A stretch of DNA of 64,000 nucleotides. Origin: Pseudonocardia sp. ICBG1293. GTDB lineage: Bacteria; Actinomycetota; Actinomycetes; Mycobacteriales; Pseudonocardiaceae. The notes beneath the pieces were generated by a model that was not told the origin of the DNA, searched no databases, and saw nothing but the letters and a program-made list of their open reading frames with translations. The translations under genes and the position numbers were made by a program. Positions 1 to 54,794 of this stretch are shown one piece after another. The stretch is taken from the NCBI RefSeq assembly GCF_020131355.1, contig NZ_JAHLEL010000064.1, forward strand, positions 1-64,000, read 5' to 3'. Each line of letters opens with the position of its first letter. Position 1 is the stretch's first letter.

Positions 1-862
1 CCCACGCTTGTTGTTGGTCGCGGCAGCCGTGCAGCGGGGACCACGGCAGCACCGCGGGCCAGGCGGTGGTGCCGGTCAGATCGAACACGAGAACGGGTCC
101 CGCGTCGGGCCGGCGAGCGCGGGACAACGCCGACAGCTCCAACAGATCCGGTTTCGTGGTCGAGCACAGCAACGCGCCCGGGGCGTCGATGCAGATCCCG
201 CACAGCCAGCAGCGGGTCTTCCCGGACTGGGTCGGTGCCAGCACCCCGGTCGGGTTCGTAAACGGCGCCCACAACTGACCGCACGCCGCACACGTCGGTA
301 GCGGGATCCCCACCTCCCCCGGCGCCGCCGCACGGACCTGGGCGGCACTCATACCCGGCCGAGTCCGAGCGGCGGAGGCCCGGCACGCCTTCACCGACAG
401 CTCCGCGGCGATCTCAGCAGTGGTGGCATGCCCAGCCGGGACCGGCGCCACCCGCGCCAGCGCGGTGCTGACCAGCCCCGGACGGGACCGCCGCGACCGG
501 CGACCACCCCGACGCCGTCGTGCGGCGGCCCAGCCCGCGATCATCATCGCGGCCACGAGCACCGTCGCGGCACCAATCAGGCAATTCCGGAACAAGCCCG
601 GCACCACGAACAGATGTGCAGTGGTCGACCCGGCCGGGGCCGGAACCCGCAACAGCCGCCCCACCAGATCGACAACATCCGCAGGCCCAAGGAATAGCCA
701 CCGCGGCGCACCGGAAATCAGCCCGGCGACCAGGGCAGCGGTCTCGACACACACCAAGACACAGGCACCGAGGAACACGGTGATCATCAGGTGGGCGTAG
801 TCGTCTTTCCACGACGAGGCTCCTGGTGTAGTGCTCACACCTGCTCCCTCACTGTTGTACAC
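1..862 (-). CDS. VirD4/TraG-type coupling protein, N-terminal part (cut by window edge)
   Basis: This is the first part of the coupling ATPase that is complete at 55282-57237. About 287 residues are present. They include two hydrophobic segments (about 25-50 and 92-114), an Arg-rich linker and the P-loop APTQSGKT (207-216 region). The protein would sit in the inner membrane and feed relaxase-bound DNA to the secretion channel. The start is GTG at 862, with a second GTG eight codons later. It lies only 54 bp downstream of the amidohydrolase on the same strand, so it may be the last gene of the operon that starts with the XRE regulator. Confidence 0.85.
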   Translation of the reverse strand, partial: MYNSEGAGVSTTPGASSWKDDYAHLMITVFLGACVLVCVETAALVAGLISGAPRWLFLGPADVVDLVGRLLRVPAPAGSTTAHLFVVPGLFRNCLIGAATVLVAAMMIAGWAAARRRRGGRRSRRSRPGLVSTALARVAPVPAGHATTAEIAAELSVKACRASAARTRPGMSAAQVRAAAPGEVGIPLPTCAACGQLWAPFTNPTGVLAPTQSGKTRCWLCGICIDAPGALLCSTTKPDLLELSALSRARRPDAGPVLVFDLTGTTAWPAVLPWSPLHGCRDQQQAW

Positions 863-916
863 GATCGCACCAGCCCGATTGTGGTTGCTCGTGTGTGATT
901 GCGACTATGGCCTGAG

Positions 917-2125
917 TCAGACGACACGGTGCCCGCGCGTCATGACGAGGTGCAGGCGGCGCAGGTAGTCAAGATCGTCGCGCGGGTCCCCGGACGCAAC
1001 AATAAGGTCAGCATAGAGTCCTGCACGGATCCTGCCGGTCTGTTCGCTGATTCTGAGATTATCGGCTGCTGTCCCGGTTACGTGGGTGATGACTTCGGAG
1101 CGTGTGAATCCGCGCTCTACGTAATGCTCCAAGGAGGTCGGGAAGTCGTCAAAAATAGCATTGGGCAGGCCGGAATCGCTGCCGATGAGAATTGGCACCC
1201 CATGTGCTCGGAGCCATGGCAGGTGGTCACCGATCCGGTGGTCATCGGGGAACGGTAAAAGATCGGCTAGCATCCGCCACTGAGGCGGTGCGGTATCGCC
1301 TGCAATAATTGATGCAGTGGCCATCTTGCTTGCGATCTCATCGGAAAGGTCCATCTTTTTCTTAGCTGCCCACCAGCCGCAGTGCTCAATAGTGTGCACG
1401 CCAGCATCAACGCATACCTTGATCGTTTTTGTGGCGTGCGCGTGGGCGGCTACAGGGGTCCCATAAGCGCTCGCTCGCCGGACGATGTAGGCCAGGTCGG
1501 AAGAAGAGAACTGGGAGTCGAACATCGACGGTCCGCGCGGCGTCATCTGGCCGCCACCAGCCATGACCTTGATCCAGTCCGCTTTCGCTGCAGCGAGTCC
1601 TTCGATATGTTTGTCGATTTGGCTGTGGTTAGCGACTTCCCCGCCGAGGAACCAGCAGTGACCTTGGGGGATGGTGAGTGGGGTTCCTGAGGAAAGGATA
1701 CGAGGCCCCAGGGTTTCGCCTCGGTCAATCTGATCTCTGAGCGAGATCACGAGTCCCCGACTGTCTCCGAGATCTCGCACTGTTGTGCACCCACCTGTGA
1801 GCACTGATAGGGCGTTCCTCTGGATCAGATTTGTCAGCGTGGTGTGATCGCCGTCAGCGGCGGTAGCGAAAGGCTGTGGGCTCAGGTCACCGCAGAGGTG
1901 TACGTGGGCGTTGATCAGGCCGGGCAGTAGCGTTCCGCCCGGAAAGTCCAGCCGTGTAGCGCTGGGTTCAGCATGAATACTGACGTCTGCAAGGTCGCCG
2001 ACAACGTGGATCACGTTGTCACGGACAAGTACCGCCGCGGGGCGAGGCGCGGTGGCCCGCTGTCCGCCTGCGATTGTTTCCGGATCTCCATCGATGATGT
2101 TGGCGGCGGTGATGAGAGTGTCCAT
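917..2125 (-). CDS. Amidohydrolase family protein (metal-dependent)
   Basis: A 402-residue amidohydrolase-superfamily enzyme of the imidazolonepropionase/prolidase-like type. Visible metal-site features are HVH at 74-76, the probable carboxylated lysine K187 in WIKVMAGGG, histidines near 228-230, H248 in TIEHCG and D317 in GSDSGLP. Members hydrolyse C-N bonds in cyclic amides or peptides; the substrate here is unknown. No signal peptide is seen. I prefer ATG 2125 (GGAAAG upstream) over an in-frame TTG at 2134. It follows the MAB_1171c-like gene by 26 bp and precedes the coupling-protein gene by 54 bp. Its place in a regulator/protease operon suggests signal turnover rather than housekeeping metabolism; that is inference. 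Confidence 0.85.
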   Translation of the reverse strand: MDTLITAANIIDGDPETIAGGQRATAPRPAAVLVRDNVIHVVGDLADVSIHAEPSATRLDFPGGTLLPGLINAHVHLCGDLSPQPFATAADGDHTTLTNLIQRNALSVLTGGCTTVRDLGDSRGLVISLRDQIDRGETLGPRILSSGTPLTIPQGHCWFLGGEVANHSQIDKHIEGLAAAKADWIKVMAGGGQMTPRGPSMFDSQFSSSDLAYIVRRASAYGTPVAAHAHATKTIKVCVDAGVHTIEHCGWWAAKKKMDLSDEIASKMATASIIAGDTAPPQWRMLADLLPFPDDHRIGDHLPWLRAHGVPILIGSDSGLPNAIFDDFPTSLEHYVERGFTRSEVITHVTGTAADNLRISEQTGRIRAGLYADLIVASGDPRDDLDYLRRLHLVMTRGHRVV

Positions 2126-2151
2126 TGGCGGCAACTTTCCGAACTATGAGG

Positions 2152-3320
<1,169 letters not shown>

Positions 3321-3324
<4 letters not shown>

Positions 3325-3884
3325 CGGAACCCCCGCAGGGCGCGCCCGCCGACGGCACGTGCGTAAAGACGTTCACTCTCACTAAGACCGCTAGCGTCGA
3401 TATCAATCAAAGGAGCTGGTCGATTTGCCATCTCAACGAGGATAGCGGCGGAGGTCTCCGCCTCCCACTCTTTCCAGGAGCTGAAATACTTGCCCGCCCC
3501 GGGCTCCTGATTTTCTTTGTCGATCTCTGTGAAGTTTCCACAGAGCATCTCCCCGCCGCGGGGGTGATTCCGCGCGATATGAGTCAGCTCATGACATATT
3601 ATGTAGCTTTGGTAAGGAATTGACACGTCCGCAGCATGGACGATGAGGTACTCGTCAGGGAACGGAACTAGCGATCCGAACCCGACTCCGGATACTCCTG
3701 GAATCGTGTGGCCTTCAACGTTGATACTCTTGCCCAAACGTTCGGCTAGTCTCTGACACAGGATCCATGGGTCCAGCCTGCTCACGATTCCGAGATCCTT
3801 TAAAAGCGTCCGCCAAAATTTTCTGAGCTCGGCATCTGTCATCGGGATCTGCAGGCAATCATCATGGGGCGTCGGTGCGACCAT
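3321..3884 (-). CDS. ImmA/IrrE family metallo-endopeptidase
   Basis: A 187-residue protease with the zinc motif HELTH at 98-102 and a downstream glutamate-rich helix (EWEAE, about 139-143) supplying the likely third ligand. ImmA of ICEBs1 and IrrE/PprI of Deinococcus cleave XRE-type repressors, and an XRE gene lies two genes upstream here. The ATG at 3884 is chosen because AGGAGA lies 8 nt upstream. The longer open frame to 3983 would overlap the preceding gene. The 4-bp overlap with the membrane-protein gene indicates one transcript. The predicted target is the regulator at 4458-4910. Confidence 0.85.
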
Positions 3885-3939
3885 TGGGCGGCGGTCTCCT
3901 GCATGTCGTGGTGACGGTCCGTAGGGCGGTGTGGCACGA

Positions 3940-4407
3940 TCAGTTCTGCTGCAGCTGGTATTGACGATTTCGAGATATTTCAACCAACTTCACGCAGATG
4001 GCTGCTCGGATGGGACGAGCTGGCTGAACACGACACACCACCGGCCTATCCACGCCACTCTCAGAGAGAAGACGTACTAGCAATTCCTCCTCTGCTCGTT
4101 CCGCCACCGCGCTGTCGGTGATATATCCGTCTGCCACCCCAAGTGTCCGCGTAAAAAATTCCGTAAACTCTGGCGCTATGACGCGATCGCGACCGCGCAT
4201 CACATCGTCGAGTGCGTCCAAATCAGCTCTTCGAAAAGTGCCGTCAGTGATCCGCTCCAGTCGCGCACGGAGTCGCCGACTCGTGGTTCCGCTGGCGGCA
4301 TCATCGAAACGTCCACCCTCGCACAGAAACCCGAGCCGCCGGAGCCGATCCAACGGACCGAGCAACGCAACCGAATCATAGAGAAGGCGCTCGACCTCAG
4401 CATCCAT
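3940..4407 (-). CDS. Hypothetical protein between XRE regulator and ImmA
   Basis: About 156 residues, acidic and helical, with no domain I recognise. It starts at ATG 4407 (MDAEVERLL); an in-frame TTG at 4452, just after the regulator stop, is the alternative and would allow translational coupling. Residues such as LDALDDVMRGRDRVIAPEF and EEELLVRLLSE suggest an all-alpha fold. Its position between repressor and protease makes it a candidate co-regulator or adaptor of repressor cleavage, but nothing in the sequence proves this. Confidence 0.65.
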   Translation of the reverse strand: MDAEVERLLYDSVALLGPLDRLRRLGFLCEGGRFDDAASGTTSRRLRARLERITDGTFRRADLDALDDVMRGRDRVIAPEFTEFFTRTLGVADGYITDSAVAERAEEELLVRLLSESGVDRPVVCRVQPARPIRAAICVKLVEISRNRQYQLQQN

Positions 4408-4457
4408 GCCAGACCCGGTTCGTGAAGACTCTTCCGCGCAGCCGATAGCCAACGTGT

Positions 4458-4910
4458 TCAGACGTCATCCGCACTGCTGCTCTCCTTCGTTCGACTCCGC
4501 TTCTGGATGAGGTCGGTCAGCAACTCATCGAACGCGACTCGCTGGCTCGCATTAAGAGCCGCGGCGCGATAAGCAACATCCTGCACCTGGGCATCCCGCA
4601 TAGCGGCGCGAAGACTTATCTGTGCCTCCACCGCACGGACTGCCTCGGGATCATCCAGCAGGTACCCGACACGCACTCCGAAAAAGTCCGCGATGCCCTT
4701 CAGGACCCGAAGCGTCGGGTTCCCCGTCATCCCCCGCCGCAGCTGAGACAGGTACGACTCCGACAACTCGACGTCAGCCTCATTGACCGCCGCAACGAGC
4801 TCTCGCCCGCTGTACCGACGGTCCTCGCCCTCCGGACGAACATGCTCGAACAGGTAGTTCAGCCGCGCGGTCAAGCCACCATCTGAGCTGCCGTCCGTCG
4901 TCGCTGCCAT
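4458..4910 (-). CDS. XRE-family helix-turn-helix regulator
   Basis: A 150-residue protein with an N-terminal Cro/C1-type HTH (about 33-77: SESYLSQLRRG as recognition region, followed by ADFFGV) and a C-terminal helical extension that could hold the ImmA cleavage or dimerisation site. The SD GAGGAGG lies 11 nt before ATG 4910. It is transcribed divergently from the transfer operon at 5086, the classic position for a repressor of conjugation such as ImmR. It heads the leftward operon and so probably autoregulates. Confidence 0.85.
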   Translation of the reverse strand: MAATTDGSSDGGLTARLNYLFEHVRPEGEDRRYSGRELVAAVNEADVELSESYLSQLRRGMTGNPTLRVLKGIADFFGVRVGYLLDDPEAVRAVEAQISLRAAMRDAQVQDVAYRAAALNASQRVAFDELLTDLIQKRSRTKESSSADDV

Positions 4911-5085
4911 CGCGCGCTGCCTCCTCGCTGAGCGGCGCCCGCCACCCCCGAGCGAGGCTACGGGATTTATCGGCGTGCATGTCTGGTTGATGAAGTTCTG
5001 GCGAAGTGCCCGTCTGGTCCTGTACCTTCACTATCGTGATTTGATCAGATACATCCAGCGGTGCACCTCAGAGGGAGGTTGAGCG
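4911..5085. promoter_or_regulatory. Divergent control region between XRE repressor and transfer operon
   Basis: A 175-bp gap between two divergent operons. Around 5030-5060 lies an AT-richer stretch with TATC...GATA ends and the palindrome TGATCA, a plausible operator. The rightward operon has a good SD (GGGAGG) ending about 9 nt before ATG 5086. No -10/-35 pair is clear enough to name. The same sequence is present in copy 2 at 61286-61460. Confidence 0.5.
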
Positions 5086-5205
5086 ATGGAGGACCCGTCC
5101 AGCAGTCACGTGCTACACCAGAGAGCTGGCGACCTTACCCCTGGTGGAAGCACATGGAGGCCGCAGTCTCAGCTTCTCGGCACCGTCCATGGGGCGTCGG
5201 TTTGA
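5086..5205 (+). CDS. 39-residue leader ORF of the transfer operon
   Basis: The ATG at 5086 has the best SD in this region (GGGAGGTTGAGCG before it). The frame encodes 39 residues, starting MEDPSSSHVLHQ, and stops at TGA 5203-5205. That TGA overlaps the ATG of the next gene as TGATG. It looks like a translated leader coupling expression of the 274-residue protein. Alternatively it is the true N-terminus of the next gene displaced by a frameshift. The peptide has no recognisable domain. Confidence 0.5.
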   Translation: MEDPSSSHVLHQRAGDLTPGGSTWRPQSQLLGTVHGASV

Positions 5206-6029
5206 TGCCGCGCCGGCGCGTCCCGACGCCCCCAACGACTTCGTCCACATGGCGAACAGCCCCAGGACTTGGCGAGAGCCCAGGCCTCCCCGCCATCCCG
5301 ATCGACGAGACCTCACCACCAGCGGCCGTGCACGTCATCACACCGAGAGGTCCACGCTCCACAGCTCTCGCCGAAGTCACAGCGCCTGATGAGACCGAGA
5401 CGGATGCCGAACTGACTCCACCACAGATCCGCCTCGATGAGGAGATTTCTCCGACGAAGCCTCAGGCCCGCCGGCGATCCCTGACTCGTGTGTCCGTCGA
5501 GCCGTCGTTCACCCGGTCGGTTCGGTCGTGGGAGCGGGTGTCCGATGTGGAGGCGTCGTCGTTCGCGGGACGGTTCGCGTGTGATTTCCAGTCGTTCGAC
5601 GAGGACGATCCGTGGCGGCGTGCCGAGGTCCTCCGCGAAGTCCTCGCGGACGCGCAGGCCTCTACGTGGGGCTGGTCGGGTGTCGGTCGTCAGCGGGCGG
5701 ATGCGCCGTTGCCGGGGCGGTTGTATCGGCGGTCGGACACGGTGGTGTTCGTCGAGGTGCTCGTCCGCGCCACCCCGTACATCCGTGCTCCGGTGCCTGG
5801 TCCTGGCGCCGATCCCGAGAACGAGAGTGAACGCGGCGGCCTGGCGGAGCCGCCGGGGACGATCGGCCGCTCCTGCGCCCCACCGGAAGCGGATGCGTCG
5901 TGGACCGCGGCCGAGCCGCGCTGGGTGCGGATGACGGTGCCGGTCACTCGTGCCCCGGAGGACGGCCGTCTGGTCGTCGATCCTGGTCTGTTGTCCGGGC
6001 CTGTCGATGAGCAGGCAGGTAGCCGCTGA
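5205..6029 (+). CDS. Hypothetical protein, first large gene of the transfer operon
   Basis: 274 residues. The N-terminal 90 are Pro/Thr-rich and probably disordered. The C-terminal half is a compact unknown domain (SFTRSVRSWERVSDVE onward) with VFVEVLVRATPYIR and a terminal VPVTRAPEDGRLVVDPG segment. No membrane span or catalytic motif is visible. It starts at ATG 5205 inside TGATG and ends with another TGATG overlap at 6029. Position suggests a conserved accessory of this conjugation family; function unknown. Confidence 0.7.
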   Translation: MPRRRVPTPPTTSSTWRTAPGLGESPGLPAIPIDETSPPAAVHVITPRGPRSTALAEVTAPDETETDAELTPPQIRLDEEISPTKPQARRRSLTRVSVEPSFTRSVRSWERVSDVEASSFAGRFACDFQSFDEDDPWRRAEVLREVLADAQASTWGWSGVGRQRADAPLPGRLYRRSDTVVFVEVLVRATPYIRAPVPGPGADPENESERGGLAEPPGTIGRSCAPPEADASWTAAEPRWVRMTVPVTRAPEDGRLVVDPGLLSGPVDEQAGSR

Positions 6030-7357
6030 TGTCGAGCAGTAATCACGTGCCGTCTCCGGTGGAGACCGCGGCGACGACGGCGCCGTCGTGGCTGGCCGAT
6101 GGGGCTGCGGCGTGGGCCGCTCCCGGCGCCCCGAGCACGCCCGAGTCGATGGCGGCCGCAGCGGCGGCTCCGGAAGTCCCCGTCGAGCAGCCGGCGCCGA
6201 GCGAGTCCCCAGAGCAGCTGTTGTCTGCTGCCCCTGGCGCTGGCCCGCGGCCCGTTCGGCCTGCGGCCGAGCCGCCGGGAACGGCGGCGGCGCCGTTCTG
6301 GAACACCGACGACGCCGTAGGCTCTGTCGGCCAGGACACTCCGGTGGTCGGTTTCTCTGACGGTGGTGCGTTCGCCGATGTGGTGCGCCCGAAACTCGTG
6401 GCGCCGACCCGCGGCTGGCGGGCCGCCGTCTACGCCGTAACCGGTGGGCGGTGGAATCCCGGGCTGTCCGAGGCCGAACTCCGCCGGAAGGACCAGGTCC
6501 GCCGCATCACGACACCGCTGTCGGGGCCCTACAGCGTCGCGGTCGGGTCGATCAAAGGTGGTGTCGGGAAGACGACGTGCACCGGTCTGCTCGGGTTGGC
6601 GATGGCCGAGCACCGCGGGGACCGGGTCATCGCGATCGACGCAAATCCCGATGCCGGGACGCTCGGGGATCGTCTCGTTGGGGAGGTCCAGGCGGGTAAG
6701 CGGACGGTGCGGGACCTGTTGCGCGATCTGGACCAGGTCCGTACTTCTACGCAGTTGTCGGGTTACACCCATCTCGCCGGACGCCTGCGTGTCCTCACCA
6801 GTGAGCAGGCGCCGGAGTTGTCGGAGATGTTCTCCGAGCGCGACTACGAGCGTGTCCTACACCTGTTGTCGATCTACCACGAGCTGCTCCTCACCGACTG
6901 TGGGACGGGTCTGGTGCACTCGGCGATGCAGGGCACCCTGCGCCACGCCGATTCCCTGGTGGTGGTGGGGGCCCCGACCAAGGACGGTGCATCGCGGGCG
7001 GCCCGGACGTTGCAGTGGCTCGCCACCCACCAGACCGCGCCCGGCCGGTTCCCGTACCAAGACCTGGTCCGTGACGCCGTGGTCGTCCTGTCCTGTGACC
7101 GGCAGTCCCGCTACGTCGACGACACCGTCATCCACGACTACTTCGCCTCCCGGGTCCGAGCAGTGGTCGAACTTCCCGCCGACCCGCACCTGGCAACCGG
7201 GGACATCATCGATCTGGATGCCCTGGCCCCGGCCACCCGCGATGCGGTTCTCGAGCTCGCCGCCGTGGTCGCCGACGGCTTCCAGGGCCGCCGCACGCAC
7301 GGCCTGGCCGCACACGGCTTCCGCGACGACCATGCCGGTCGCGAGGTGGGCCGGTGA
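6029..7357 (+). CDS. MinD/ParA-like P-loop ATPase of the transfer operon
   Basis: 442 residues. Residues 1-165 are Ala/Pro-rich linker. The deviant Walker A KGGVGKT (176-182) starts a MinD/ParA fold, with DANPDAGTLGDRL (switch I), DCGTG (Walker B region) and VVVGAPTKDGASRAARTL. Similar long-N-terminus MinD-like ATPases occur in type VII secretion and in actinobacterial conjugation loci, where they may position the machinery. No ParB gene or parS-like repeat lies beside it, so canonical partition is not supported. It overlaps the next GTG by 4 bp. Confidence 0.8.
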   Translation: MSSSNHVPSPVETAATTAPSWLADGAAAWAAPGAPSTPESMAAAAAAPEVPVEQPAPSESPEQLLSAAPGAGPRPVRPAAEPPGTAAAPFWNTDDAVGSVGQDTPVVGFSDGGAFADVVRPKLVAPTRGWRAAVYAVTGGRWNPGLSEAELRRKDQVRRITTPLSGPYSVAVGSIKGGVGKTTCTGLLGLAMAEHRGDRVIAIDANPDAGTLGDRLVGEVQAGKRTVRDLLRDLDQVRTSTQLSGYTHLAGRLRVLTSEQAPELSEMFSERDYERVLHLLSIYHELLLTDCGTGLVHSAMQGTLRHADSLVVVGAPTKDGASRAARTLQWLATHQTAPGRFPYQDLVRDAVVVLSCDRQSRYVDDTVIHDYFASRVRAVVELPADPHLATGDIIDLDALAPATRDAVLELAAVVADGFQGRRTHGLAAHGFRDDHAGREVGR

Positions 7358-8475
7358 TCGGGTCCGGGCTGGTCGGTGCGGTGGTGGGGGCGGTGACGTC
7401 GTTGGCGGTCGCGGTCGCCCCGCCCGCTCCCGTACCCGCAGATACCCAGGTCGAGTGCGGGTGGCGCATTACAGCGGTGCACGTGCTGGCCGAACTCACC
7501 GACGACACCAGCGACCGGGCCGCGATGTGGCGGGCGGCGTTGACCAGCGTCGGCGCCCACCGGCCCGGGTTCGTCCCCGCCACCTGCTACCAGACCGGGG
7601 ATCGGTCGGGTAATCATGAAAACGGATCCAATGATCATCCAGAACAGAACGAACAGAACGGGCAGGTGCCGGCGCAGGCACCGGACCCGGCCGCGCCTGG
7701 CTCGTCTGATCCGCCAGCCGCACAGGACCAGAGCGGCAGCGCTGGTGAGGTGTTCGGGTGGGGTACCCCGGATGTCGTCGACGACTTCACCGGCCAGCAG
7801 TTGGGCCCGGGCTGGAATGCCTATGACGGCCCCGGACACGCCGGGAACGGCGTCCGCTCCCCGGCAGCGGCGACCATCGCTGACGGCGTCCTGACGATCG
7901 ACGGCACCGGGGACGGCACGACCGCCGGCCTGGCCTGGACCTCGAACGCGCAGAAATACGGACGCTGGGAAGTCCGGATGCGCGCACCCACTGGGTCCCC
8001 CTCCTACAACGCGCTGGCCCTGCTCTGGCCCACTGAAGAAAATTTCCCGGTCGGTGGGGAGATCGACTTCGCCGAGATCATGGACCCGGCCCGGGACAAG
8101 GTCGAGTTGTTCCTGCACTACGGGGCGGACAACTCCCAGGTCCACGGCGAACTCCAGGTGGATGCCACCCGGTGGCACAACTACGCCGTCGAATGGACAC
8201 CGCAGGGCGTGACCGCGTTCGTCGACGGCCGCGAGTGGTGGAAGACAGAAGACACTTCCATCCTGCCGCCCGGGCCGATGCACTTGTGCCTACAGCTGGA
8301 CTGGTTCCCCCGCGGGGACAACGAGTCCGGGCAGATGCAGGTCGATTGGGTCAAGCAGTGGGGCCTCGCCGCCGGCGACGGTGCCTCCACCGACTCGGCG
8401 GGCAGCAAGGGCTCCACCGATGCCGACTCCAGCACGTCGATCACCGACGAGATCAACAACGTGGGTAGGTCCTAG
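7354..8475 (+). CDS. GH16 family glycoside hydrolase, exported
   Basis: 373 residues. A hydrophobic N-terminus (1-29, ending PPAPVPA) suggests export. A small Cys-containing domain (30-85), a Gln/Asn/Pro linker and a GH16 beta-jelly-roll (about 138-340) follow. The catalytic signature EIDFAE (236-241) matches ExDxxE, with E236 as nucleophile and E241 as acid/base. GH16 enzymes cleave beta-1,3/1,4-glucans and galactans. Inside a conjugation operon it may trim capsule or exopolysaccharide, as Rpf and NlpC/P60 proteins trim peptidoglycan. The GTG start at 7354 overlaps the ATPase stop by 4 bp. Confidence 0.8.
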   Translation: MIGSGLVGAVVGAVTSLAVAVAPPAPVPADTQVECGWRITAVHVLAELTDDTSDRAAMWRAALTSVGAHRPGFVPATCYQTGDRSGNHENGSNDHPEQNEQNGQVPAQAPDPAAPGSSDPPAAQDQSGSAGEVFGWGTPDVVDDFTGQQLGPGWNAYDGPGHAGNGVRSPAAATIADGVLTIDGTGDGTTAGLAWTSNAQKYGRWEVRMRAPTGSPSYNALALLWPTEENFPVGGEIDFAEIMDPARDKVELFLHYGADNSQVHGELQVDATRWHNYAVEWTPQGVTAFVDGREWWKTEDTSILPPGPMHLCLQLDWFPRGDNESGQMQVDWVKQWGLAAGDGASTDSAGSKGSTDADSSTSITDEINNVGRS

Positions 8476-10541: not shown

Positions 10542-12693
10542 TCACTGCTCGTCGGGGCTGGGTGGAGTGTTCGCAGGGATCTGGACGTCGATCAGCGCGA
10601 CGTTGCTCTCGAAGTTGGTGTCATGAGGGCATCCGCAAGTGTCAAGCTCATCCAGGAGTTCCTGGACCCGCCGCGCCGTCCGTTGGTGTCGCTCAGCCTC
10701 CCGATCCCAGCCGCGAGTCTCTGCGTCGCAGATGAGCTGTTGCTCGGTCTCGAGCCGGATGCGGAGTCGGGGGGCGTAGTCGGGGGTGGTGACGAACTTC
10801 GAGCAGGTCAGGTAGAGGTCGCACTCACAGGGCCCCTCCTGGGGCAGGCGCAGGCAGCGGCCGAGTTCGAGCTCGGTCTTGAAGAAGTTCGTCGACAACC
10901 AGTTCACGGCCTCCGTGGTGAGATCGCCGCTGCGGATGGCCTCGGCCTGCGGGCCGGCCAGGACCGCGCCGGGAGCGAGGACGGCCTGGTAGTCGGCGAG
11001 GACGACGGGATCGGACAGACTGGTGTAGGTCATCGACATGCCCGCGGAGCGGTGTCCGAGGACCTTCATGATGGTCTGGATCTTCGCGCCGCGTTCACCG
11101 AGCTGGGTGCCCATGGTGTGCCGGAAGCGGTGCGGGTGGACCAGCGCCTTGCCATCGTCGTCGACCAGGCCCAACGCGCGGCAGACCTCGGTCAGCCCGA
11201 CCTTGAACAGGTAGTCCGGGCTGGCCAGGCGCCCGTTGCGCAGGAACAGGTAGCGAACCGTCCGGCCGAGTCGCTGGTCGAACAGCGGCTGGTCGGTCTG
11301 CGCGCAGCGACGCGCGGCCAGGTCGCGGACGGCCTCGGCTGCCTCGGGGTGGATCGGGACGACCCGTTCCTTGGCCGACTTGCCCGCGGCCAGGCGCAGG
11401 CGGTGGGTGCCGTCGGGGTAGGTGTCGAGGCAGTCCAGCTCGAGCTTGCGGATCTCCCCGCTGCGGGCCCCGCTCCAGCGGGCGACCAACAGTGCAGTGC
11501 GCTGCAGCGGATCAGCCAGGGCGCGGATGCCGTCCATGAGCGGGTCGAGCTGCTCGGCGGGGATGAACCGTGGGACGCGCTCGATCCTGCGAGGAACGTC
11601 AGAGCTGGTCAGCGGAGGTTTGGTGGGCATGTGGGGCCACTCATTGATCGCGGCGTGGCGGAAGAACCGCGCGACGTTGCCGATGACGCCGTCGCGATAG
11701 ACCGCCGAGAGCGGCTGCTCGGGATGCTTCCACTTGCGCTGGTGGGGCAACCAGGCCAGGAACTCCAGCAGGGCAGGCCGGTCGAGCCCGGCCAAGGTGG
11801 TCTGCTCGGGTCGGGTCTCAGCGTGCCAGGCAGCCAGCCGCAGCAGGCCCGAGCGGACCTGGGTGACGGTGCCGGGCGCGCGTCGGACGGCGAGCTCGCG
11901 CAGATAGCGCCCCATCGCCTCCTCGACCGCGGGGACCGCGCTGAGCGCGGCCGGCGGGCGGGGTTGCTTGCGCAGCGGCAGGGCCTCGATGAACCCGGCG
12001 TGGAACAGCGCGACCCCGGTCTGGGTGACGCTGCTGTGCCAAGCCTGCGGGAACCCGGACTGCATCCGGACCTTCAGGTCGAGCTGCTCGATCTCGGGCA
12101 GCGAGGTAACGGTGCGGATGGCCGTGCGCAACTCGTCGATCTCGGCCAGGGACAACGTCGTGAGGTCGGGGTCGGCGCGGTGCAGGATCAGCCGCGGCAG
12201 CGCCCAGGGCAGGCTCTTGTTGACGCTGGGGACCGACAGACCCCGTCCGAGCTCCTGCTCACGCAGGGCGGCCATCTGCGCGCGCAGCGGCAGGCTCAGC
12301 CCGTCGGCGATGGCGAGGATCCGCAGGTTCGCCGCCCCGAACAGCCACGGCCAGTCCAGGCGCCGCCGCCCGGTCAACGACAGGTAGAACAGGTAGGGCC
12401 GCGCTCGGAAGCTCACCGTCGCGCCCGCCGGGTCGACCAGCGTGCCCGACGGGACGGGGCGCGCGTTGATCGTAGGACCGACCCGTTCCGCCAACGGACG
12501 ACGGGCCCATCGCGTCATCGACGGGTAGTGGGCGACGAACTCCGCCCGGGCCTGCAAGCAGCATCGGTGCCCAGTTCCTCGAGCCGCGCAGCCCGCCGTG
12601 GACGAATCGCTCGTACTCATCGACCGAGGCGTGCGAGGGACCCGAGTAGCCGTCGGTGGTGCGCAGTGACCCCGAACGTCGTGGCGCGCTCAT
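10542..12693 (-). CDS. TnpB-like large tyrosine recombinase (apparent frameshift near its N-terminus)
   Basis: About 716 residues if one base is skipped near 12552, joining frame ATG 12693 (MSAPRRSGSLR...RNWAPMLL) to the main frame (QARAEFVAHYPS...). Without the shift the main frame would start near 12620. Catalytic features are the Arg in WSGARSGEIRKL, HPHRFRHTMGTQL, and the His/Tyr of LGHRSAGMSMTY. A Cys-rich tail (CECDLYLTCSKF, CGCPHD) is typical of Tn554 TnpB-like proteins. The ATG overlaps the TnpA stop by 4 bp. Confidence 0.75.
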
Positions 12694-13838
12694 CGCGCCA
12701 TGTCCGGCTGCGGGGCCTGCTCCAAAGCGGTCCGGTAGTCGTCGCGGACCTGATGGTCGGTGAGCCGGACGTAGACCTTGGTCGAGCCCGGGTGGGCGTG
12801 CCCGAGGCGGCGCATCAAGGTCAGCTCTCGCATCCCGAGCTCGGCCATCCGGGTGGCGTGGGTGTGGCGCAGGCTGTGCGGCGTCAGCCAGGGCTCGCGC
12901 ACCCCGGCACGGGTCGCGGCCCGCTGGAACAGTCGGACCAGGCCGTCGTAGCTCAGCGCGTGATCTCTGCGGGCGCCTCTGCCACCGATCAGGAACAGCA
13001 GCGGGGTCTGGGCCTCCGGTGGGCGTTCGAGCAGCACGTAGCGGTTCAGGGTCGGGAGTGCCCTGTCCTCGAGCAAGTCCACCACCCGATCACGGCGGGA
13101 CTTCTGCCGTGCGCCCTGCGGGTGATCGTCGCGGTGGCAGACGGTGACCCGTTTCCGACCGTAGGAGATGTCCTCCAGATGCAAGCCCAGCACCTCGCCC
13201 GGACGCAGGCCACCTTCGTGCATGAGCTCGAGCAGCGCCCGATCGCGCAGCTTGTCCAGCTGCCCCAGCAGCACCAGGTAGGTCTCGTCCGGGACCGGGC
13301 GCGGCAGCGTGTCAACGGTGCGGACCCGCAGGACCCGACGGACCGGGCGCTGATCGGCACTGGTCAGCAGCGGCGGCCGATACCGGCCCAGCACACGGGC
13401 CGAAGCCTGATCGGCCTCACGCAGGATCGGGTTCTCCACCTGCGAGTAGCCGCCGCAGCTGATCAGGAACTCATAGAACGACGACACCGCAGCCAGCACC
13501 CGATTGCAGGTTCGCGCCGACAACCGCCGCCCGTCCCCACTGACCAGACCGAGCTGGCTGCGCTGCGCCCTCCCAGCCGAGGACTGGACTCTCAGCCAAG
13601 CCAGGAACTCCGTGGCCAGCATCGGGGAGAACCCGCTGACTGGCTCGCCGCGCTCGTCGAGGAACTGCAGCAGTTTCATCAGATCGTAGGCATAAGCCCG
13701 GACCGTGTTCGGAGAGAAATCCCGCACGGCCAACGACGACAGGAACGCCGAGACCTCCGACACCGGTACACCGGAGTCCTCGACCAGCATCACCGCCGGC
13801 TCTCCCAGCCGCTCCGGCTCGCACTTCACCACTCGCAT
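12690..13838 (-). CDS. TnpA-like tyrosine recombinase
   Basis: 382 residues, close to Tn554 TnpA (about 361). An N-terminal SAM-like DNA-binding domain (SPNTVRAYAYDLMKLLQFL) precedes the catalytic domain: Arg in EGGLRPGEVLGL, HSLRHTHATRM, and LGHAHPGSTKVYVRL with the nucleophilic Tyr. It forms an overlapping pair with the TnpB-like gene. Together they would cut and join at the TTATC ends without a resolvase or DDE enzyme. Confidence 0.85.
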   Translation of the reverse strand: MRVVKCEPERLGEPAVMLVEDSGVPVSEVSAFLSSLAVRDFSPNTVRAYAYDLMKLLQFLDERGEPVSGFSPMLATEFLAWLRVQSSAGRAQRSQLGLVSGDGRRLSARTCNRVLAAVSSFYEFLISCGGYSQVENPILREADQASARVLGRYRPPLLTSADQRPVRRVLRVRTVDTLPRPVPDETYLVLLGQLDKLRDRALLELMHEGGLRPGEVLGLHLEDISYGRKRVTVCHRDDHPQGARQKSRRDRVVDLLEDRALPTLNRYVLLERPPEAQTPLLFLIGGRGARRDHALSYDGLVRLFQRAATRAGVREPWLTPHSLRHTHATRMAELGMRELTLMRRLGHAHPGSTKVYVRLTDHQVRDDYRTALEQAPQPDMAR

Positions 13839-13916
13839 GACCGCGAACTAGATCATGAAACGCGGTCGTCTGACCTGCAGCTTCCTCGGAGTGCAGGAGA
13901 AAGTGTCCAGATAAAG

Positions 13917-14078
13917 GGTGGCCTGCAGTTCAGCCCGCCGACCTGGCGGGCGTTCGGTGGGGAAGGCGAAGCGCACGAGGCGTCCCGGGCCGAGCAGATC
14001 GAGGTCGCCGAGCGGGTCCAGGCCGTGCAGGGCTGGCAGGCGTGGCCGGCCTGTTCGAAGCGCCTCGGCCTCCGATGA
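13917..14078 (+). pseudogene. Rpf/transglycosylase domain, C-terminal remainder
   Basis: The sequence GGLQFSPPTWRAFGGEGEA and the tail QAVQGWQAWPACSKRLGLR are the missing half of the Rpf fold that begins before 10507. Removing 10508-13914 plus the hexamer difference restores NGYHGGLQFSPPTW in frame. It has no start of its own and is almost certainly untranslated unless the transposon excises. The TGA at 14076-14078 overlaps an ATG of a short downstream frame. Confidence 0.85.
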
Positions 14079-15644: not shown

Positions 15645-16489
15645 TGCCCGGCCTGATGAACACCGACCAGCCGCCCGGCAGTGGTAGTCGGCGCCGCGCG
15701 CTGCTGATCCTCGGCGGCGCCGCACTGCTGGTGCTGGCCTTGTTGGTCGGCGTGGCCGTGTCAGTGACCAGCATGTTCACCAGCGACAGCCCGGACAGCC
15801 CGGTGTCTTTCGGTCCGGGTTCGTCGGCCGCGCCCGCACCGGGCGGGGCGAGCGTGGGTAGCGGGCCGGCGGCTGAGGCGGCGCTGGCCCGGCGCCCGAT
15901 GCTCGACATCCCCGCCCAGGCCGCGATGCCGCACACCCTCTCGACACGCACCGCGGGCCCTCCGATCTCGCTGCCCCAGCCGGAGCAGGTGTCAGGCGTG
16001 CTCGTCCCGACCGGGTTCCCCGACAGCGAAGAAGGCGCGATCGCCCAGGTGATCGAGCTGGCCCGGGTGGGGCTCTCCGGCGCTGATCCGCAAGTCTGGG
16101 CCCAGGCTTACAACTCGATGGCCGAGCCCGGTGCCGCCGTAGCGGAGCAGACGCCCGCCGCGCGGAACCTCGTAGGCCTGCGCCGCGCGGCGAACATGCG
16201 CGAGACCGGGCCGCTGCGCCCCGGGATGACGATCTCCTGGACCCCGACCAGCGCGATGGTCAAGGGCAGCACCGACGACGGCACCTACACCGTGGCGTGT
16301 GTCCTCGGCGAGCTCGTCGCCGACAACAAGGGCCGCGTGGTCACCGCCGGATGGGGCACCTGCCTACCGATGCGCCGCGTCGACGACCAATGGCGGATCG
16401 CCTCCGGCCCAGCCGCGGCCGACGCCCCCGCAGCCTGGCCGGGCAGCGACGAGGCCGTCGCCGCCGGATACCGGGACCTCATCCGATGA
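15644..16489 (+). CDS. Conjugal transfer protein, TcpC/VirB8-like
   Basis: 281 residues with one N-terminal TM helix (about 19-42: RRALLILGGAALLVLALLVGV region), a Pro/Gly linker and an exported alpha+beta domain (about 110-281) of NTF2-like appearance, ending with CLPMRRVDDQWRIASGPA. This is the architecture of TcpC/VirB8 channel scaffolds in Gram-positive conjugation. It starts at ATG 15644 inside TGATG and overlaps the next gene by 4 bp. Confidence 0.7.
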   Translation: MPGLMNTDQPPGSGSRRRALLILGGAALLVLALLVGVAVSVTSMFTSDSPDSPVSFGPGSSAAPAPGGASVGSGPAAEAALARRPMLDIPAQAAMPHTLSTRTAGPPISLPQPEQVSGVLVPTGFPDSEEGAIAQVIELARVGLSGADPQVWAQAYNSMAEPGAAVAEQTPAARNLVGLRRAANMRETGPLRPGMTISWTPTSAMVKGSTDDGTYTVACVLGELVADNKGRVVTAGWGTCLPMRRVDDQWRIASGPAAADAPAAWPGSDEAVAAGYRDLIR

Positions 16490-18171
16490 CCACCCTGCAC
16501 CGGCCGGCCCAAGATCCGACGCAGCCCCCGGCCGGCGACGGTGGAGGCGGCTGGAACCCGGTCTCGGATCTGGTCGGCGGCTCCCTGAGCAACATCGCCC
16601 AGAACGCATTCAGCTCCGCGATGCAGGCAGTGTGGGACTCGGCGATCTGGCTGCTCAAAGGCGGTTTCGACCTCGCCGACACCGTCTCACAGGTCTCCCC
16701 CGCCACGATCACCGGCAATCCCGCCGACAACCCCGACCCCATCCCCGGGGCCGCTGCCCCACCGGCCGGTGCCGCGAGTGCGGTGGAGCTGGGTTCGTTG
16801 TGGCCGACCATGATCTGGCTGGCCGCGTTGATCGCACTCGGGCTGTTCTTCTCCCAGCTCGCCTCGGTCGCGCTGCGGTGCGGGCGGGGCATGTTCCGGG
16901 CGGTCACCGGCCCCGCACAGTTCGGGATCGCCCTGGCGGTGACCACCGGCGCGGTCGCGGCCCTGTTGACCGGCGCTGACGGGCTCACCACCCTGTTCCT
17001 GTCGATCCTGGGTGAGCAGGGCAGCTTCACCGCGATCCTGGACAACCCCGCCGTCGCCGACCGCTTCGGCGACAACCCCGACCTCGGCGCGGATGTCGAG
17101 GACGGGGTCCAGTCGATGATCCTGGGCATCGCCGCGGTGTTCGGGGTCATCCCCGCCGCGATCGGCTTCGCCCTCGCGATGATCTTCCGCGCCGCAGCGA
17201 TCATGGTGCTGATCGCGACCATCCCCCTCGCCGCAGCCTGCCTGATCTCCGACTCCACCGCGTCAATGTTCTGGCGCACGGTGCGCTGGCTGATCGCCGC
17301 GGTCCTGATGAAACCCGCCCTCGCTCTGGTCGTGGTCATCGGCGTTGCCATCATGTCGCGCACCCACGGAGTCGCCGGGCTACTCGCCGGCACCGCGGTG
17401 CTGCTGATCAGCCTGTTCAGCCCGTTCGTGCTCTACCGGCTGCTGGCCTTCGTCGACCCCGGCACCAGCGCCGGGATGGCCGTGCGCTCCGCCGGCAGCT
17501 CCCGCGCGGCGGGTGAGCCGGGCGCCGACAACGGCACCAGCGAGGCGATCAACACCGCGCGGGCCACCCAGAAGGCCTACGACATCGGCAGCACCAGCGG
17601 CGCCGGTGGTGGTGCCGCGGGCGGAGAGCTCGGCGGCAGCACCGCCGCGACCAGAGGAGCCTCCGGCAGCGCAGGAACCGGCACCGCCGCGACCGGCGGG
17701 GGCGGCGCTGCCGCAGGTGGCGGCGTTGCGGCCGGGGCGGGCGCGGTGGGCGGTGCGGCGGCGGCAGCCGTCGTCGGCGGCTACCTGGCCACCAAGGCCG
17801 CCGCGGGTGCTGCGGGGGCCTACGGGTCATCGCAGATGGCCCAGACCGGCATCGGTCACCCCGGACCCGCCCCCGCCGCCGGGGCCAGCGGCGGGCAGAT
17901 CCGCTCCGCCGCGGGCGGCGCCTACAACGCGACGTCGAACCGGATCGCCCAGACCTCGAACAGCAGCAGCGACCCAGACGCACCCGGCGACTCCAGCGAT
18001 GGTGACGGCGGCGGTGGCCCGGAGCCGCCGCCGGTAGACCCGGGCCCGACCGAGCCCACACCACCCGACGGCGCCGGCCCCACCACCGATACCGGTAGGC
18101 CGGCACCCGACCCGGCCCCCGGATCCGAGGAGCCGGCCCAGGCTGGCGCCGATCGAGAGGACGGCCGCTGA
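16486..18171 (+). CDS. TrbL/VirB6-like polytopic channel protein
   Basis: 561 residues. Hydrophobic helices occur at about 100-120, 140-165, 215-250, 265-285 and 290-330; the first 95 residues hold an amphipathic region (FSSAMQAVWDSAIWLLKGGFDLAD). The C-terminal 200 residues are Gly/Ala-rich then Pro/Glu-rich and likely cytoplasmic. This matches the TrbL/VirB6 membrane subunit of T4SS-like machines. ATG 16486 overlaps the upstream stop. Confidence 0.75.
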   Translation: MTTLHRPAQDPTQPPAGDGGGGWNPVSDLVGGSLSNIAQNAFSSAMQAVWDSAIWLLKGGFDLADTVSQVSPATITGNPADNPDPIPGAAAPPAGAASAVELGSLWPTMIWLAALIALGLFFSQLASVALRCGRGMFRAVTGPAQFGIALAVTTGAVAALLTGADGLTTLFLSILGEQGSFTAILDNPAVADRFGDNPDLGADVEDGVQSMILGIAAVFGVIPAAIGFALAMIFRAAAIMVLIATIPLAAACLISDSTASMFWRTVRWLIAAVLMKPALALVVVIGVAIMSRTHGVAGLLAGTAVLLISLFSPFVLYRLLAFVDPGTSAGMAVRSAGSSRAAGEPGADNGTSEAINTARATQKAYDIGSTSGAGGGAAGGELGGSTAATRGASGSAGTGTAATGGGGAAAGGGVAAGAGAVGGAAAAAVVGGYLATKAAAGAAGAYGSSQMAQTGIGHPGPAPAAGASGGQIRSAAGGAYNATSNRIAQTSNSSSDPDAPGDSSDGDGGGGPEPPPVDPGPTEPTPPDGAGPTTDTGRPAPDPAPGSEEPAQAGADREDGR

Positions 18172-19700: not shown

Positions 19701-21400
19701 ACATCTTCGGTAAGCGCCGCCGCCGGATCGAGCCACGCAGCACCGGCGAGCTGCTCAGCCAATTCACCGACCTCGACGGCATCCCCACCAGCCTCCCCAC
19801 ACCGGACCAGGACCCGGCCGACGAACCCACCGGCCGCGCCGCACGCGGCCAGCGGGTCAACCAGGCCACCGCCCCGCGCCAGGGCCCGCGCGAGCACGGC
19901 CGCGGCTGGTCCGCGGTCGATGCCGCCCGGCGGGCTCCGGTCTATAAGGCCACCACCGCCGAGGTGGGTGGGCTGTTCCCGCTGCTGGCTTCCAACGGCG
20001 TCCCGGCCATCGGGGCGCGGCTGGGTTACGACACCCAGTCCGGGGGCGCGTTCTACGTCCACCCCACCGAATGGGTGCTGCGCGGCATGGTCACCAACCC
20101 GAACCTGGTGGTGTTCGGCGAACCCGGCCGCGGAAAGTCCTCGACGGTCGTGGCGCTGATGCTGCGGATGATGCTCTTCGGGGTCCGCTCCCTGATCTCC
20201 GGCGATGTGAAGGGCGAGTACACCCCGCTGCTGCGCTCGCTCGGGATCACCCCGATCGCGCTCGGGCGCGGTAGCCCGCACCGCCTCAACGCCCTCGACC
20301 TCGGCCCGCTACGGGTCCGCTGGAACACCTGGGGTGCCGAGCGCCAGAACGAGGAGCTCATCGGGATCCTGGCCCGCTGGACCCGGCTGCTCACCGCGCT
20401 GGCCGAGGCTCAGGGCTACTTGCCCACGGTGACTGACGAGCTGGTCATCTCCACCGTCCTGCGCCGCCTCGTCGGTGCCGCGGACGGCTATTCCGAGCTG
20501 CGTCCGATCACGATCCCGCAGGTCGTGGCCCAGCTCGCCGACCCCGACGACGACCTGTGGCAGGCCACCCGCTTCGCCTCGCACCGCCAGTTCGTCGACC
20601 ACACCCGGCCGATCACCGACGCCCTCTCCAACCTCGTCGTCGGCCCCCTGTCCGGGCTGTTCGACGAACCCACCAACTTCGACCTCGACTGGGACGCCCC
20701 GGTTCAGTCGATGGACCTGTCGCTGCTGCGCAGCCGGGGCGACCAGGCGATCGCGGTCGCCCTGACCTGCCTCGGGTCCTGGTCGGCGATGATCACCGAC
20801 CTCCAAGACGACGGCGACATCCGCATCGTCGTCCGCGACGAGGTCTGGCGCCAGATGCGCCTCGGGCTACGCGCGGTTCAGGCCGTCGACTCCGACCTCC
20901 GGCTGTCCCGGGCCGAACGCAAAATCCAGCTCCTGGTCATGCACAAGCCCTCCGACCTGCTCTCCGTCGGCGCCGCCGGATCCCAGGAGGTCTCCATCGC
21001 CAAAGACCTCCTCGCCCTGTGCTCCACGAGGATCCTGCTCGGCCAGTCCACGAGGGTCGGCGACGAACTCGCCGAGGACCTCGGCCTGACCGAACGCGAG
21101 CAGGCCGTGATCACCGGCTGGGCGATGGAAAGCCCCGGCCGGGCGCTGTGGAAGCTGGAGAACCGGCCCGGCATGAAAATTCAGACGGTGCTGTCCGCGA
21201 CCGAGAAAACGATCTTCGACACCAACTCGGGATTGCGCCCGAACCGGCGGCCCACGCCCAGCAGCCCAGCCAGCGTAGAGACCCTGACCAGTAACAACAC
21301 CACCGACAGTCCGGGCGGCGAGGCCACACACAGCAGCTCCGGCGGCATCGATCCCCGACCCGCTGGCGTCAATGGAACATTGACAGAGGAGAGGCCGTGA
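19697..21400 (+). CDS. VirB4-like conjugation ATPase
   Basis: 567 residues. The P-loop GEPGRGKSS lies at 141-149, followed by LRMMLFGVRSLISGDVKGEY. A Walker B-like stretch (IRIVVRDEVWRQM) and an arginine-finger-type motif near ILLGQSTRVGDELAEDLGL complete a VirB4/TraC fold. The usual N-terminal VirB4 domain is short and is probably supplied by the upstream SCO6880-type protein. It powers assembly and substrate movement at the inner membrane. ATG 19697 overlaps the previous stop. Confidence 0.85.
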   Translation: MNIFGKRRRRIEPRSTGELLSQFTDLDGIPTSLPTPDQDPADEPTGRAARGQRVNQATAPRQGPREHGRGWSAVDAARRAPVYKATTAEVGGLFPLLASNGVPAIGARLGYDTQSGGAFYVHPTEWVLRGMVTNPNLVVFGEPGRGKSSTVVALMLRMMLFGVRSLISGDVKGEYTPLLRSLGITPIALGRGSPHRLNALDLGPLRVRWNTWGAERQNEELIGILARWTRLLTALAEAQGYLPTVTDELVISTVLRRLVGAADGYSELRPITIPQVVAQLADPDDDLWQATRFASHRQFVDHTRPITDALSNLVVGPLSGLFDEPTNFDLDWDAPVQSMDLSLLRSRGDQAIAVALTCLGSWSAMITDLQDDGDIRIVVRDEVWRQMRLGLRAVQAVDSDLRLSRAERKIQLLVMHKPSDLLSVGAAGSQEVSIAKDLLALCSTRILLGQSTRVGDELAEDLGLTEREQAVITGWAMESPGRALWKLENRPGMKIQTVLSATEKTIFDTNSGLRPNRRPTPSSPASVETLTSNNTTDSPGGEATHSSSGGIDPRPAGVNGTLTEERP

Positions 21401-22539: not shown

Positions 22540-22628
22540 CCCACGACCACCACCTCCGCGCCGGCGCCCACGGCCTCACCGCCGACGACTGGACCTTCTA
22601 CCTGCGCGGAGACCTCTTCACATGGTGA
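22536..22628 (+). CDS. 30-residue ORF in overlap chain
   Basis: ATG 22536 overlaps the NlpC/P60 stop (ATGA), and its TGA lies inside the start region of the thioesterase-like gene (ATGGTGA). The peptide starts MTHDHHLRAGAHGLTADDW and is His/Asp-rich. The double overlap fits the operon pattern; no domain can be assigned. Confidence 0.45.
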   Translation: MTHDHHLRAGAHGLTADDWTFYLRGDLFTW

Positions 22629-28244: not shown

Positions 28245-28377
28245 GACCCAGGACACCACGAATTCGCGGAGCCCACGAGAGAGAAAAACCCGCCCCCCGC
28301 CATCGAGAACCGCAGAGGACAAGCACAGCCCGAGCCCGCGACATCCTGAGTAGAACCGGCCCACCGCCAGCCTTCCC

Positions 28378-29001: not shown

Positions 29002-29088
29002 GTACGGGCTGAGCAGCGCCCCATCAGTGATCGACCGGGAAGAGCCGCCCCTGGCGGGCTCCGTGCTCACCTGCGTCACGCTCTGTGC

Positions 29089-50907: not shown

Positions 50908-50942
50908 GCCCCCGTAGCCCAATGGCAGAGGCAGACCCCTTA
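50908..50942 (+). pseudogene. tRNA gene (Leu-UAA-like), 5' half
   Basis: GCCCCCG acceptor strand, then TAGCCCAATGGCAGAGGCA forming a D-arm, then GACCC and CTTA of the anticodon arm. The 3' half resumes at 52667. Together they give a 74-nt cloverleaf with GACCC/GGGTC anticodon stem and loop CTTAAAC (anticodon UAA). The variable loop is short, unlike normal class II tRNA-Leu, but similar short forms are familiar from phage and plasmid tRNAs. One acceptor mismatch (C-A) is seen. Confidence 0.7.
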
Positions 50943-51063: not shown

Positions 51064-51130
51064 TTAGACGTCGTTTCAGAAGTGGTGGGCCCGGTTCTGC
51101 CGGTGACGGCGGGGCTGGCAGCATCGGCTG

Positions 51131-54785: not shown

Positions 54786-54794
54786 AACGACCTC
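54674..54794. mobile_element. 121-bp MITE, copy 2
   Basis: Same sequence and length as 50943-51063, flanked by the 3-bp duplication TAA (54671-54673 and 54795-54797). It inserted near the 3' end of the Lsr2-like gene and supplies 37 codons plus the stop. Confidence 0.93.

Follow-up and report, generated by a model that had tools for sequence, protein, structure and literature searches.

Introduction

In the conjugative element ICEBs1, the protease ImmA cleaves the repressor ImmR under the control of RapI/PhrI or of DNA damage (excerpts of PMC6540685), and CapP/CapH is a known protease/repressor pair (excerpts of PMC10233336). In the same excerpts, the ImmA-type switches known so far respond to DNA damage, to a peptide receptor inside the cell or to a protein of another element. 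Here we describe a cassette of five genes (positions 917-4910) in a stretch of 64,000 nucleotides of Pseudonocardia sp. ICBG1293 (positions 1-64000 of contig NZ_JAHLEL010000064.1; hereafter the window), where it stands beside the transfer operon of what is probably a MOBF conjugative plasmid. The core of the cassette is a trio formed by a regulator of the EspR family, an ImmA-type protease and a seven-transmembrane (7-TM) protein. This trio seems to be a signal switch of a kind not yet described, recruited by some plasmids beside their transfer genes. The open-licence PubMed Central (PMC) literature returned nothing on the trio, as judged by the titles among the matches listed.

As in ICEBs1, a helix-turn-helix (HTH) regulator and an ImmA-type HExxH protease are encoded on a conjugative element beside transfer genes. 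Unlike ICEBs1, which has RapI/PhrI, the cassette has a regulator of the EspR family, a 7-TM protein whose gene overlaps the protease gene, and an amidohydrolase; cleavage of the regulator is here presumed. CapH/CapP and DdrO/IrrE are likewise protease/repressor pairs, and the cassette weakly matches the capP and capH profiles, but it also encodes a membrane protein, and its other proteins are without a match in the defence library. EspR of Mycobacterium tuberculosis, a nucleoid-associated regulator, belongs to the same sequence family as the cassette regulator, which differs in being plasmid-borne and in having an M78-type protease and a 7-TM protein as its partners. The MAB_1171c/DUF6545 proteins share with the cassette protein the 7-TM part, the C-terminal domain and the same neighbours, whereas the window copy scores under the family cut-off. 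With PrgY of pCF10, which acts in pheromone shutdown, there is a likeness by analogy only, in that a plasmid product reduces the signal in donor cells, a part that the amidohydrolase could play; PrgY is a membrane protein and not an amidohydrolase, and the two were compared by description, not by sequence.

Results

Layout of the cassette

The window had been given a first-pass annotation from its letters alone, which proposed five co-oriented genes facing a transfer operon. All five open reading frames (ORFs) are present on the minus strand between 917 and 4910, opposite in direction to the transfer operon. From 4910 downward they encode an EspR-family regulator of the type that we call EspR-1 (4458-4910), a short protein, probably a partner with the EspR fold that lacks a canonical HTH (3940-4407; ORF open to 4452, likely start ATG 4407), an ImmA/IrrE (M78)-type metalloprotease (3321-3842; ORF open to 3983, start placed by homology at ATG 3842), a 7-TM relative of MAB_1171c/DUF6545 (2152-3324) and a zinc amidohydrolase (917-2134). 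The EspR gene stands two genes upstream of that for ImmA. With starts at 4407 and 3842, the gaps are about 50, 97, -4 and 17 bp, and the 4-bp overlap that had been claimed between the protease and membrane-protein genes is real (3321-3324). A gene for a TraG/VirD4 coupling protein follows in the same direction, its 5' end on the circular element (see below) corresponding to window position 862, 54 bp past the amidohydrolase stop. The operon that the cassette was said to face is indeed part of a conjugative element, on which TrwC, TraG, NlpC/P60 and transglycosylase proteins and a sub-threshold TrbL were found.

On the other side of the regulator, the claimed gap of 175 bp reaches as far as an ORF of 39 codons (5086-5205, plus strand), which overlaps the next start (TGATG). 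Since homologues start the first transfer gene at ATG 5205, the gap between repressor and operon is 294 bp. A leader peptide encoded by the short ORF was considered as the signal and dropped, because the sequence of that ORF is not conserved. The operon opens with a first conserved gene, here called U1 (5205-6029, plus strand, recognized by its homologues), followed by genes for a MinD/ParA-like ATPase (6029-7357) and a GH16 glycoside hydrolase (7354-8475), both on the plus strand and assigned by family match. Within the gap, CGTGATTTGATCAGAT (TGA-N5-TCA, 5035-5050) is a candidate operator with weak evidence; the pattern was found with at most one mismatch in L022, L023 and L042 (loci are designated by L numbers) among 20 loci scanned, and it is the best of many comparisons, with a chance count that is not independent. 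In a scan for promoters and terminators, predicted sites were about as frequent as in shuffled sequences.

Conservation of the five genes and of the core trio

Co-occurrence of the five genes beside conjugation operons, which the first-pass annotation had proposed as a check, was examined. The same genes in the same order recur beside the U1-MinD/ParA-GH16 operon on pBCI2-2 (L022), pPA12743CP (L023), a 108-kb contig (L042) and pLS2-2 (L043), the last with an IS110 element between the EspR gene and that of the putative partner; genes that never associate with transfer loci they are not. The identity of the L022 and L023 proteins to those of the window is 46-47% for EspR, 27-29% for the putative partner, 37-39% for ImmA, 24-25% for the 7-TM protein and 44-45% for the amidohydrolase. 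Retention of the gene order at such divergence is not a matter of chance and suggests selection for linkage. On pFRP1-1 (L021), ImmA, 7-TM and amidohydrolase genes occur without EspR and are flanked by transposases.

Among 393 genomes sampled from the class to which the host belongs, 92 had a match to the 7-TM family (NF042915), 58 of them above the cut-off. From the matches listed, 40 loci, one per genome, were picked by hand to spread over families and not at random, and their surroundings were searched with our own profiles for EspR, ImmA and the amidohydrolase. Within 3 kb of the 7-TM gene, ImmA was found in 37 of the 40 loci, EspR in 36 and both in 34; the ImmA gene lay at most 100 bp from the 7-TM gene in 34. 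Because members of the 40-locus set went into the final profiles for 7-TM and amidohydrolase, only the EspR and ImmA counts are independent of it. The core of the module is thus the EspR-ImmA-7TM trio. In the genome of the window itself, all three distinct 7-TM loci adjoin ImmA, and one of the four distinct ImmA loci is without a 7-TM match. The HExxH motif was intact in 58 of 58 ImmA proteins examined, these being the loci with all three genes called among 66 kept for a co-variation test. The near-duplicate 7-TM proteins of L045, L066, L083, L115 and L131 had been removed (68 of 73 loci kept), and for that test L023 and L043 were dropped as well (66 kept). Distances were correlated between EspR and ImmA (Mantel rho 0.31, p 0.001), EspR and 7-TM (0.20, p 0.008) and ImmA and 7-TM (0.49, p 0.001), correlations that shared descent alone could give.

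A chromosomal EspR/ImmA/7-TM locus recurs at one place in two genomes of the genus (L046 and L048), with flanks that, by eye, we take to be of the leuB/serA and gltX types.

Association with transfer operons

A transfer marker was present in four of the 40 class loci (L182, L183, L186 and L187). In a search based on ParA, 18 loci with U1 near ParA were found among the matches listed (L107, missed by the spacing rule of the count, is included); nine have the trio, three have EspR alone (L065, L110 and L123), one has the 7-TM gene only (L124), five have nothing, and one of the 18 has the amidohydrolase. The ParA profile was built from ten operons that all have the trio, and the nine of 18 may be biased upward. 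Among 26 distinct U1 loci, EspR was divergent from U1 at a distance of at most 700 bp in 15, and the trio was present in 16, or 17 with L053, where ImmA was masked by an overlapping ORF in this count and was seen in other searches. This set is biased, eleven loci having entered through the 7-TM family and L216 through the amidohydrolase; five duplicate rows were dropped. On a quick tree of the 7-TM protein with many open forks, no fewer than 13 changes are required for the transfer label and six for that of the amidohydrolase, so that both the link to transfer and the amidohydrolase look repeatedly gained or lost.

Five of the eight named plasmids with U1 carry ImmA, 7-TM and amidohydrolase genes nearby, two of the five being near-copies. 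The other three (pLS1-1, L217; pPaSha1, L218; pFRP1-2, L219) have, at the place of the cassette, a sigma factor with proteins of about 1300 and 460 amino acids, the larger annotated as WD40 in two of the three; this block, upstream of the same transfer operon, is possibly an alternative sensor module. A second type of regulator, EspR-2, was kept on two of these three plasmids. EspR-2 is also the regulator that faces U1 on L022, L023, L042 and pLS2-2, with the cassette EspR-1 behind it, and it is nearest U1 on pBCI2-1 and pBCI1-2 too. The window yielded no EspR type other than EspR-1, which itself faces the transfer operon. This arrangement suggests a place upstream of the transfer operon where sensor modules get swapped.

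The cassette proteins

The regulator had been called an XRE repressor. It is an HTH regulator, but of the EspR family: a profile of five sequences of the cassette HTH protein matched the EspR structure PDB 3qf3 with an E value of 1.5e-28 over profile positions 10-130, covering both the HTH and the C-terminal region, whereas the score to HTH_3 (22.6 bits, cut-off 23) falls just under the threshold. The neighbouring short protein had no Pfam or NCBIfam match, and its own profile found matches in five of 73 cassette loci. Aligned against EspR with hhalign, it gave probabilities of 21% and 70% with the first small alignments, and 97% (EspR structures at E 1e-6) once the proteins in the same slot of L044, L047 and L049 had been added, a result that may be driven by the L044 protein, which on its own matches the EspR profile. 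The short protein is probably a degenerate EspR-like partner that lost the canonical HTH.

The assignment of an ImmA protease with an HELTH motif was borne out by the presence of the motif and of a downstream WEAE with its acidic ligand, and the L022 orthologue reaches PF06114 (22.3 bits, cut-off 22). The window protein itself had no Pfam or NCBIfam match, and comparison with solved structures by sequence gave no significant match. In PADLOC it weakly matched capP (4e-4), and EspR weakly matched capH (4.6e-5). A defence system was considered and rejected, the PADLOC matches in the cassette being capP, capH and a generic HTH only.

For the 7-TM protein, a predicted model of the window copy (predicted local distance difference test, pLDDT, 85.7; 40 sequences) has seven membrane helices, the last of which continues into a helical cytosolic part. 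Lysine plus arginine amount to 1.4-2.2 per 10 residues in loops 1, 3 and 5 and after helix 7, and to 0.4-0.6 in loops 2, 4 and 6, a distribution from which an outside N-terminus and a cytosolic C-terminus are predicted; at the N-terminus the family average is 1.3 per 10 residues, and the window copy has none. All 50 matches listed for this model by Foldseek and VIA-align were G protein-coupled receptors (GPCRs) or designed GPCR-like folds, with best scores of E 0.03 (Foldseek) and Z 16.8 over 235 residues at 4.2 Å (VIA-align). A model of a divergent member (pLDDT 90.2, 27 sequences) also found GPCRs first, at Z 13.9 and Foldseek E 0.4; its VIA-align matches include LYCHOS, a cholesterol sensor (GPR155), and lower in its Foldseek list are channels (TRP) and a nitrate exchanger, these at E 1.7-2.5, and a microbial rhodopsin. 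Helical models without a clear match reach about Z 14 in VIA-align, and the divergent member scores at about this chance level. We claim a receptor-like seven-helix layout, on weak scores, and not homology to GPCRs. The relatives in L044, L169 and L172 have DUF6545 at their C-terminus. DUF6545 was not used as a wider family probe, being less sensitive than NF042915; it matched in 15 of 296 genomes of the phylum and gave a sub-threshold signal in the control, Haloferax volcanii. In the open-licence PMC literature no molecular function was found for the MAB_1171c/DUF6545 family; among the matches listed, one paper, on knockout phenotypes, names MAB_1171c, and DUF6545 was named nowhere.

The last protein was correctly called a zinc amidohydrolase. 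It scores 108.2 bits to PF01979 (cut-off 25) and has HxH, K189, H231/H233, H251 and D320, which we take to be the usual metal-site residues of amidohydrolases. The closest solved structures to its profile are arginine carboxypeptidase Cc2672 and a prolidase; the substrates of such enzymes are dipeptides or N-acyl amino acids. The enzyme is an optional part of the module, found in three of the 40 class loci and in eight of the 26 distinct U1 loci, and its association with transfer was 8/21 versus 4/47 (Fisher p 0.006). In L044 (8577-9788) and L045 (6921-8132), an amidohydrolase linked to the trio is without the metal-site lysine, the aspartate and one of the two neighbouring histidines; loss of these residues while the place is kept makes a non-catalytic role likely (a predicted pseudoenzyme). 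Two Nocardia plasmids carry relatives of the amidohydrolase in operons with a cytochrome P450, a ferredoxin, a methyltransferase and GalE, resembling a biosynthetic cluster. The cassette enzyme would accordingly act on a small-molecule substrate. Near other trios, at loci hand-picked for family searches, are a luciferase-like monooxygenase, mycothiol-dependent nitroreductases, a methyltransferase, an alpha/beta hydrolase, an MpaB-type oxygenase and FAD oxidoreductases, as well as PAP2-like proteins (one of four above the Pfam cut-off). By our gene-picking rule, 25 of 73 loci have no co-directional gene directly after the 7-TM gene, and others have doubtful ORFs only.

The element and other features

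The window is part of a 68.6-kb contig (C64) of a 7.96-Mb genome. Positions 1-6446 occur again at 56376-62819 (99.97% identity), and another contig, C63 (29.3 kb), connects the far end of this repeat with the start. Most simply, the contig represents a circle of about 56.4 kb read past its own end, the alternative being that the two copies of the block form a true tandem. An independent duplication of the five genes, which appear a second time at 57292-61285 (minus strand), was rejected: because C63 and C64 overlap into the circle, the second block reflects either a single plasmid assembled redundantly or a tandem. From position 62820 to 68617 (L007), C64 has a tail unlike the circle, with ORFs that by eye resemble transposases and a permease; the join at 62819 is sharp and possibly chimeric.

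The circle is probably a MOBF conjugative plasmid of Pseudonocardia. On the plus strand it encodes a transglycosylase-domain protein (10623-14078), a TrbL/VirB6-like protein (16297-18171; 21.2 bits, under the cut-off of 25.9), an NlpC/P60 protein (21397-22539) and a TrwC-type (MOBF) relaxase-helicase (40058-44326), the last 64.6% identical over 92% to that of the Pseudonocardia plasmid pBCI2-2. The TraG/VirD4 coupling protein is at 55282-57237 on the minus strand (placed on the circle by an offset of 56375). Apart from the TrbL/VirB6-like protein, these were assigned by family match. A DnaB helicase is also encoded on the circle. A FlK-like gene (fluoroacetyl-CoA thioesterase family) lies within the transfer region at 22622-23092, and a Tn3-family transposase at 47601-50615 is in DNA that shares 85% identity with part of an Embleya plasmid and about 80% with Rhodococcus plasmids. 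Three sets of repeats were seen: a perfect tandem repeat with a 13-bp period over about 620 bp (28377-29002), perfect direct repeats with an 81-bp period (37264-37489), and a direct repeat of 126 bp (99.2%) at 50939-51064 and 54670-54795, the latter copy extending into the end of a gene whose match to Lsr2 is sub-threshold.

Discussion

We give an even chance to the cassette being a transmembrane-signal switch, in which an EspR-type repressor is inactivated by an ImmA-type protease under the control of the 7-TM sensor, and which has here been recruited to gate transfer. The 7-TM protein, with its cytosolic C-terminal domain, would sense an extracellular or membrane-borne small molecule and would control the protease encoded just before it, the genes overlapping by 4 bp. 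Inactivation of the repressor by the protease, which the EspR-like partner likely modulates, would derepress the divergent transfer operon and the operon of the cassette itself. The amidohydrolase may make or destroy the signal, or handle the sensed compound. By analogy with switches of the ICEBs1 and CapP/CapH types, we propose that the 7-TM protein stands where these have an intracellular sensor; sensing, coupling of the 7-TM protein to ImmA, cleavage, repression of transfer and the role of the enzyme are inferred.

This reading is favoured by the linkage of EspR, ImmA and 7-TM genes across the class, the intact HExxH motifs and amidohydrolase site, the correlated distances of the three families, the weak capP and capH matches and the receptor-like layout of the 7-TM protein. 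The order of the five genes, kept at great divergence, the trio beside nine of 18 transfer operons and the EspR genes divergent from U1 favour it too. Several results weigh against it. The window 7-TM protein scored 92.9 bits to the MAB_1171c family NF042915, did not reach the cut-off of 100 and had no match to Pfam DUF6545; the protein that the first-pass annotation called MAB_1171c-like is treated here as a relative of that family and not a member. Among the 40 class loci, profile searches did not find ImmA in L171, L174 and L178, or EspR in L174, L192, L203 and L204. The operator pattern at 5035-5050 was absent from the other 16 of the 20 loci scanned, including L043, a close relative of L042. 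The association of the amidohydrolase with transfer was not significant in phylogenetically independent pairs, which were too few for the test. Where EspR-2 is nearest U1, that is on L022, L023, L042, pLS2-2, pBCI2-1 and pBCI1-2, the cassette EspR may act elsewhere. Finally, the annotation had proposed a candidate conjugation switch: the association of the cassette with transfer loci is conserved, but the module is not in itself a system of conjugation. The amidohydrolase is optional, a second EspR faces the operon on several related plasmids, and no transfer marker was found in the fetched stretch of 36 of the 40 class loci, the markers being window proteins that may miss other systems.

The class loci without a transfer marker and the EspR-2 nearest U1 on several relatives would also be expected if the trio were a general actinobacterial metabolite- or antibiotic-responsive switch carried as cargo, mainly controlling a neighbouring enzyme and not transfer, at a spot beside the transfer genes that is a hotspot for accessory modules. 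The varied enzymes near other trios fit that explanation, as do the sigma-factor block at the same place on three of the eight named plasmids and the G+C content of the cassette (0.57 at 2001-4000), which is below that of most of the element. Against it stand the cassette EspR of the window, which itself faces the transfer operon, the EspR gene that, in 15 of 26 loci, diverges from U1 at a distance of at most 700 bp, and the co-directional TraG gene 54 bp downstream of the cassette; we regard it as possible, though somewhat unlikely. It is quite improbable that the cassette is a DNA-damage switch like that of ICEBs1 (the RecA route), CapP/CapH or DdrO/IrrE, in which the 7-TM protein and the amidohydrolase would be bystanders. 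The ImmA-type proteases of known pairs do respond to DNA damage or single-stranded DNA (excerpts of PMC10233336 and PMC6540685), and the capP and capH matches point the same way, but throughout the class the 7-TM gene keeps close to ImmA (at most 100 bp apart in 34 of 40 loci) and so does not behave as a bystander. We are equally sceptical of the 7-TM protein being a transporter or exporter of the signal, with sensing taking place inside the cell. NCBI names the NF042915 family a putative transporter; MAB_1171c is labelled a transporter and its knockout forms about half the biofilm (excerpts of PMC8707978); and the nitrate exchanger and TRP channels are low in the Foldseek list of the second model. 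Both predicted models, however, are of one GPCR-like seven-helix bundle with a cytosolic domain, and in VIA-align they match GPCRs and designed GPCR-like folds, the second model also LYCHOS, at weak scores.

The transmembrane-signal switch may have a wider form, which we put forward as an unlikely but far-reaching extension. The trio would then represent an undescribed and widespread class of actinobacterial signalling, in which a receptor-like 7-TM protein of GPCR-like layout acts straight through ImmA on EspR, the ligand being made or removed by an enzyme that can be exchanged. Plasmids would have recruited this class to gate conjugation; in cells that bear the plasmid the amidohydrolase would erase the signal, and plasmid-free neighbours alone would trigger transfer.

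The enzymes that neighbour the trio offer a handle for finding the ligand, and the reading of the cassette as a switch would make the control of conjugation in these plasmids directly testable. If a membrane sensor is indeed dedicated to such a protease and regulator, it would be a further route of bacterial signal transduction.

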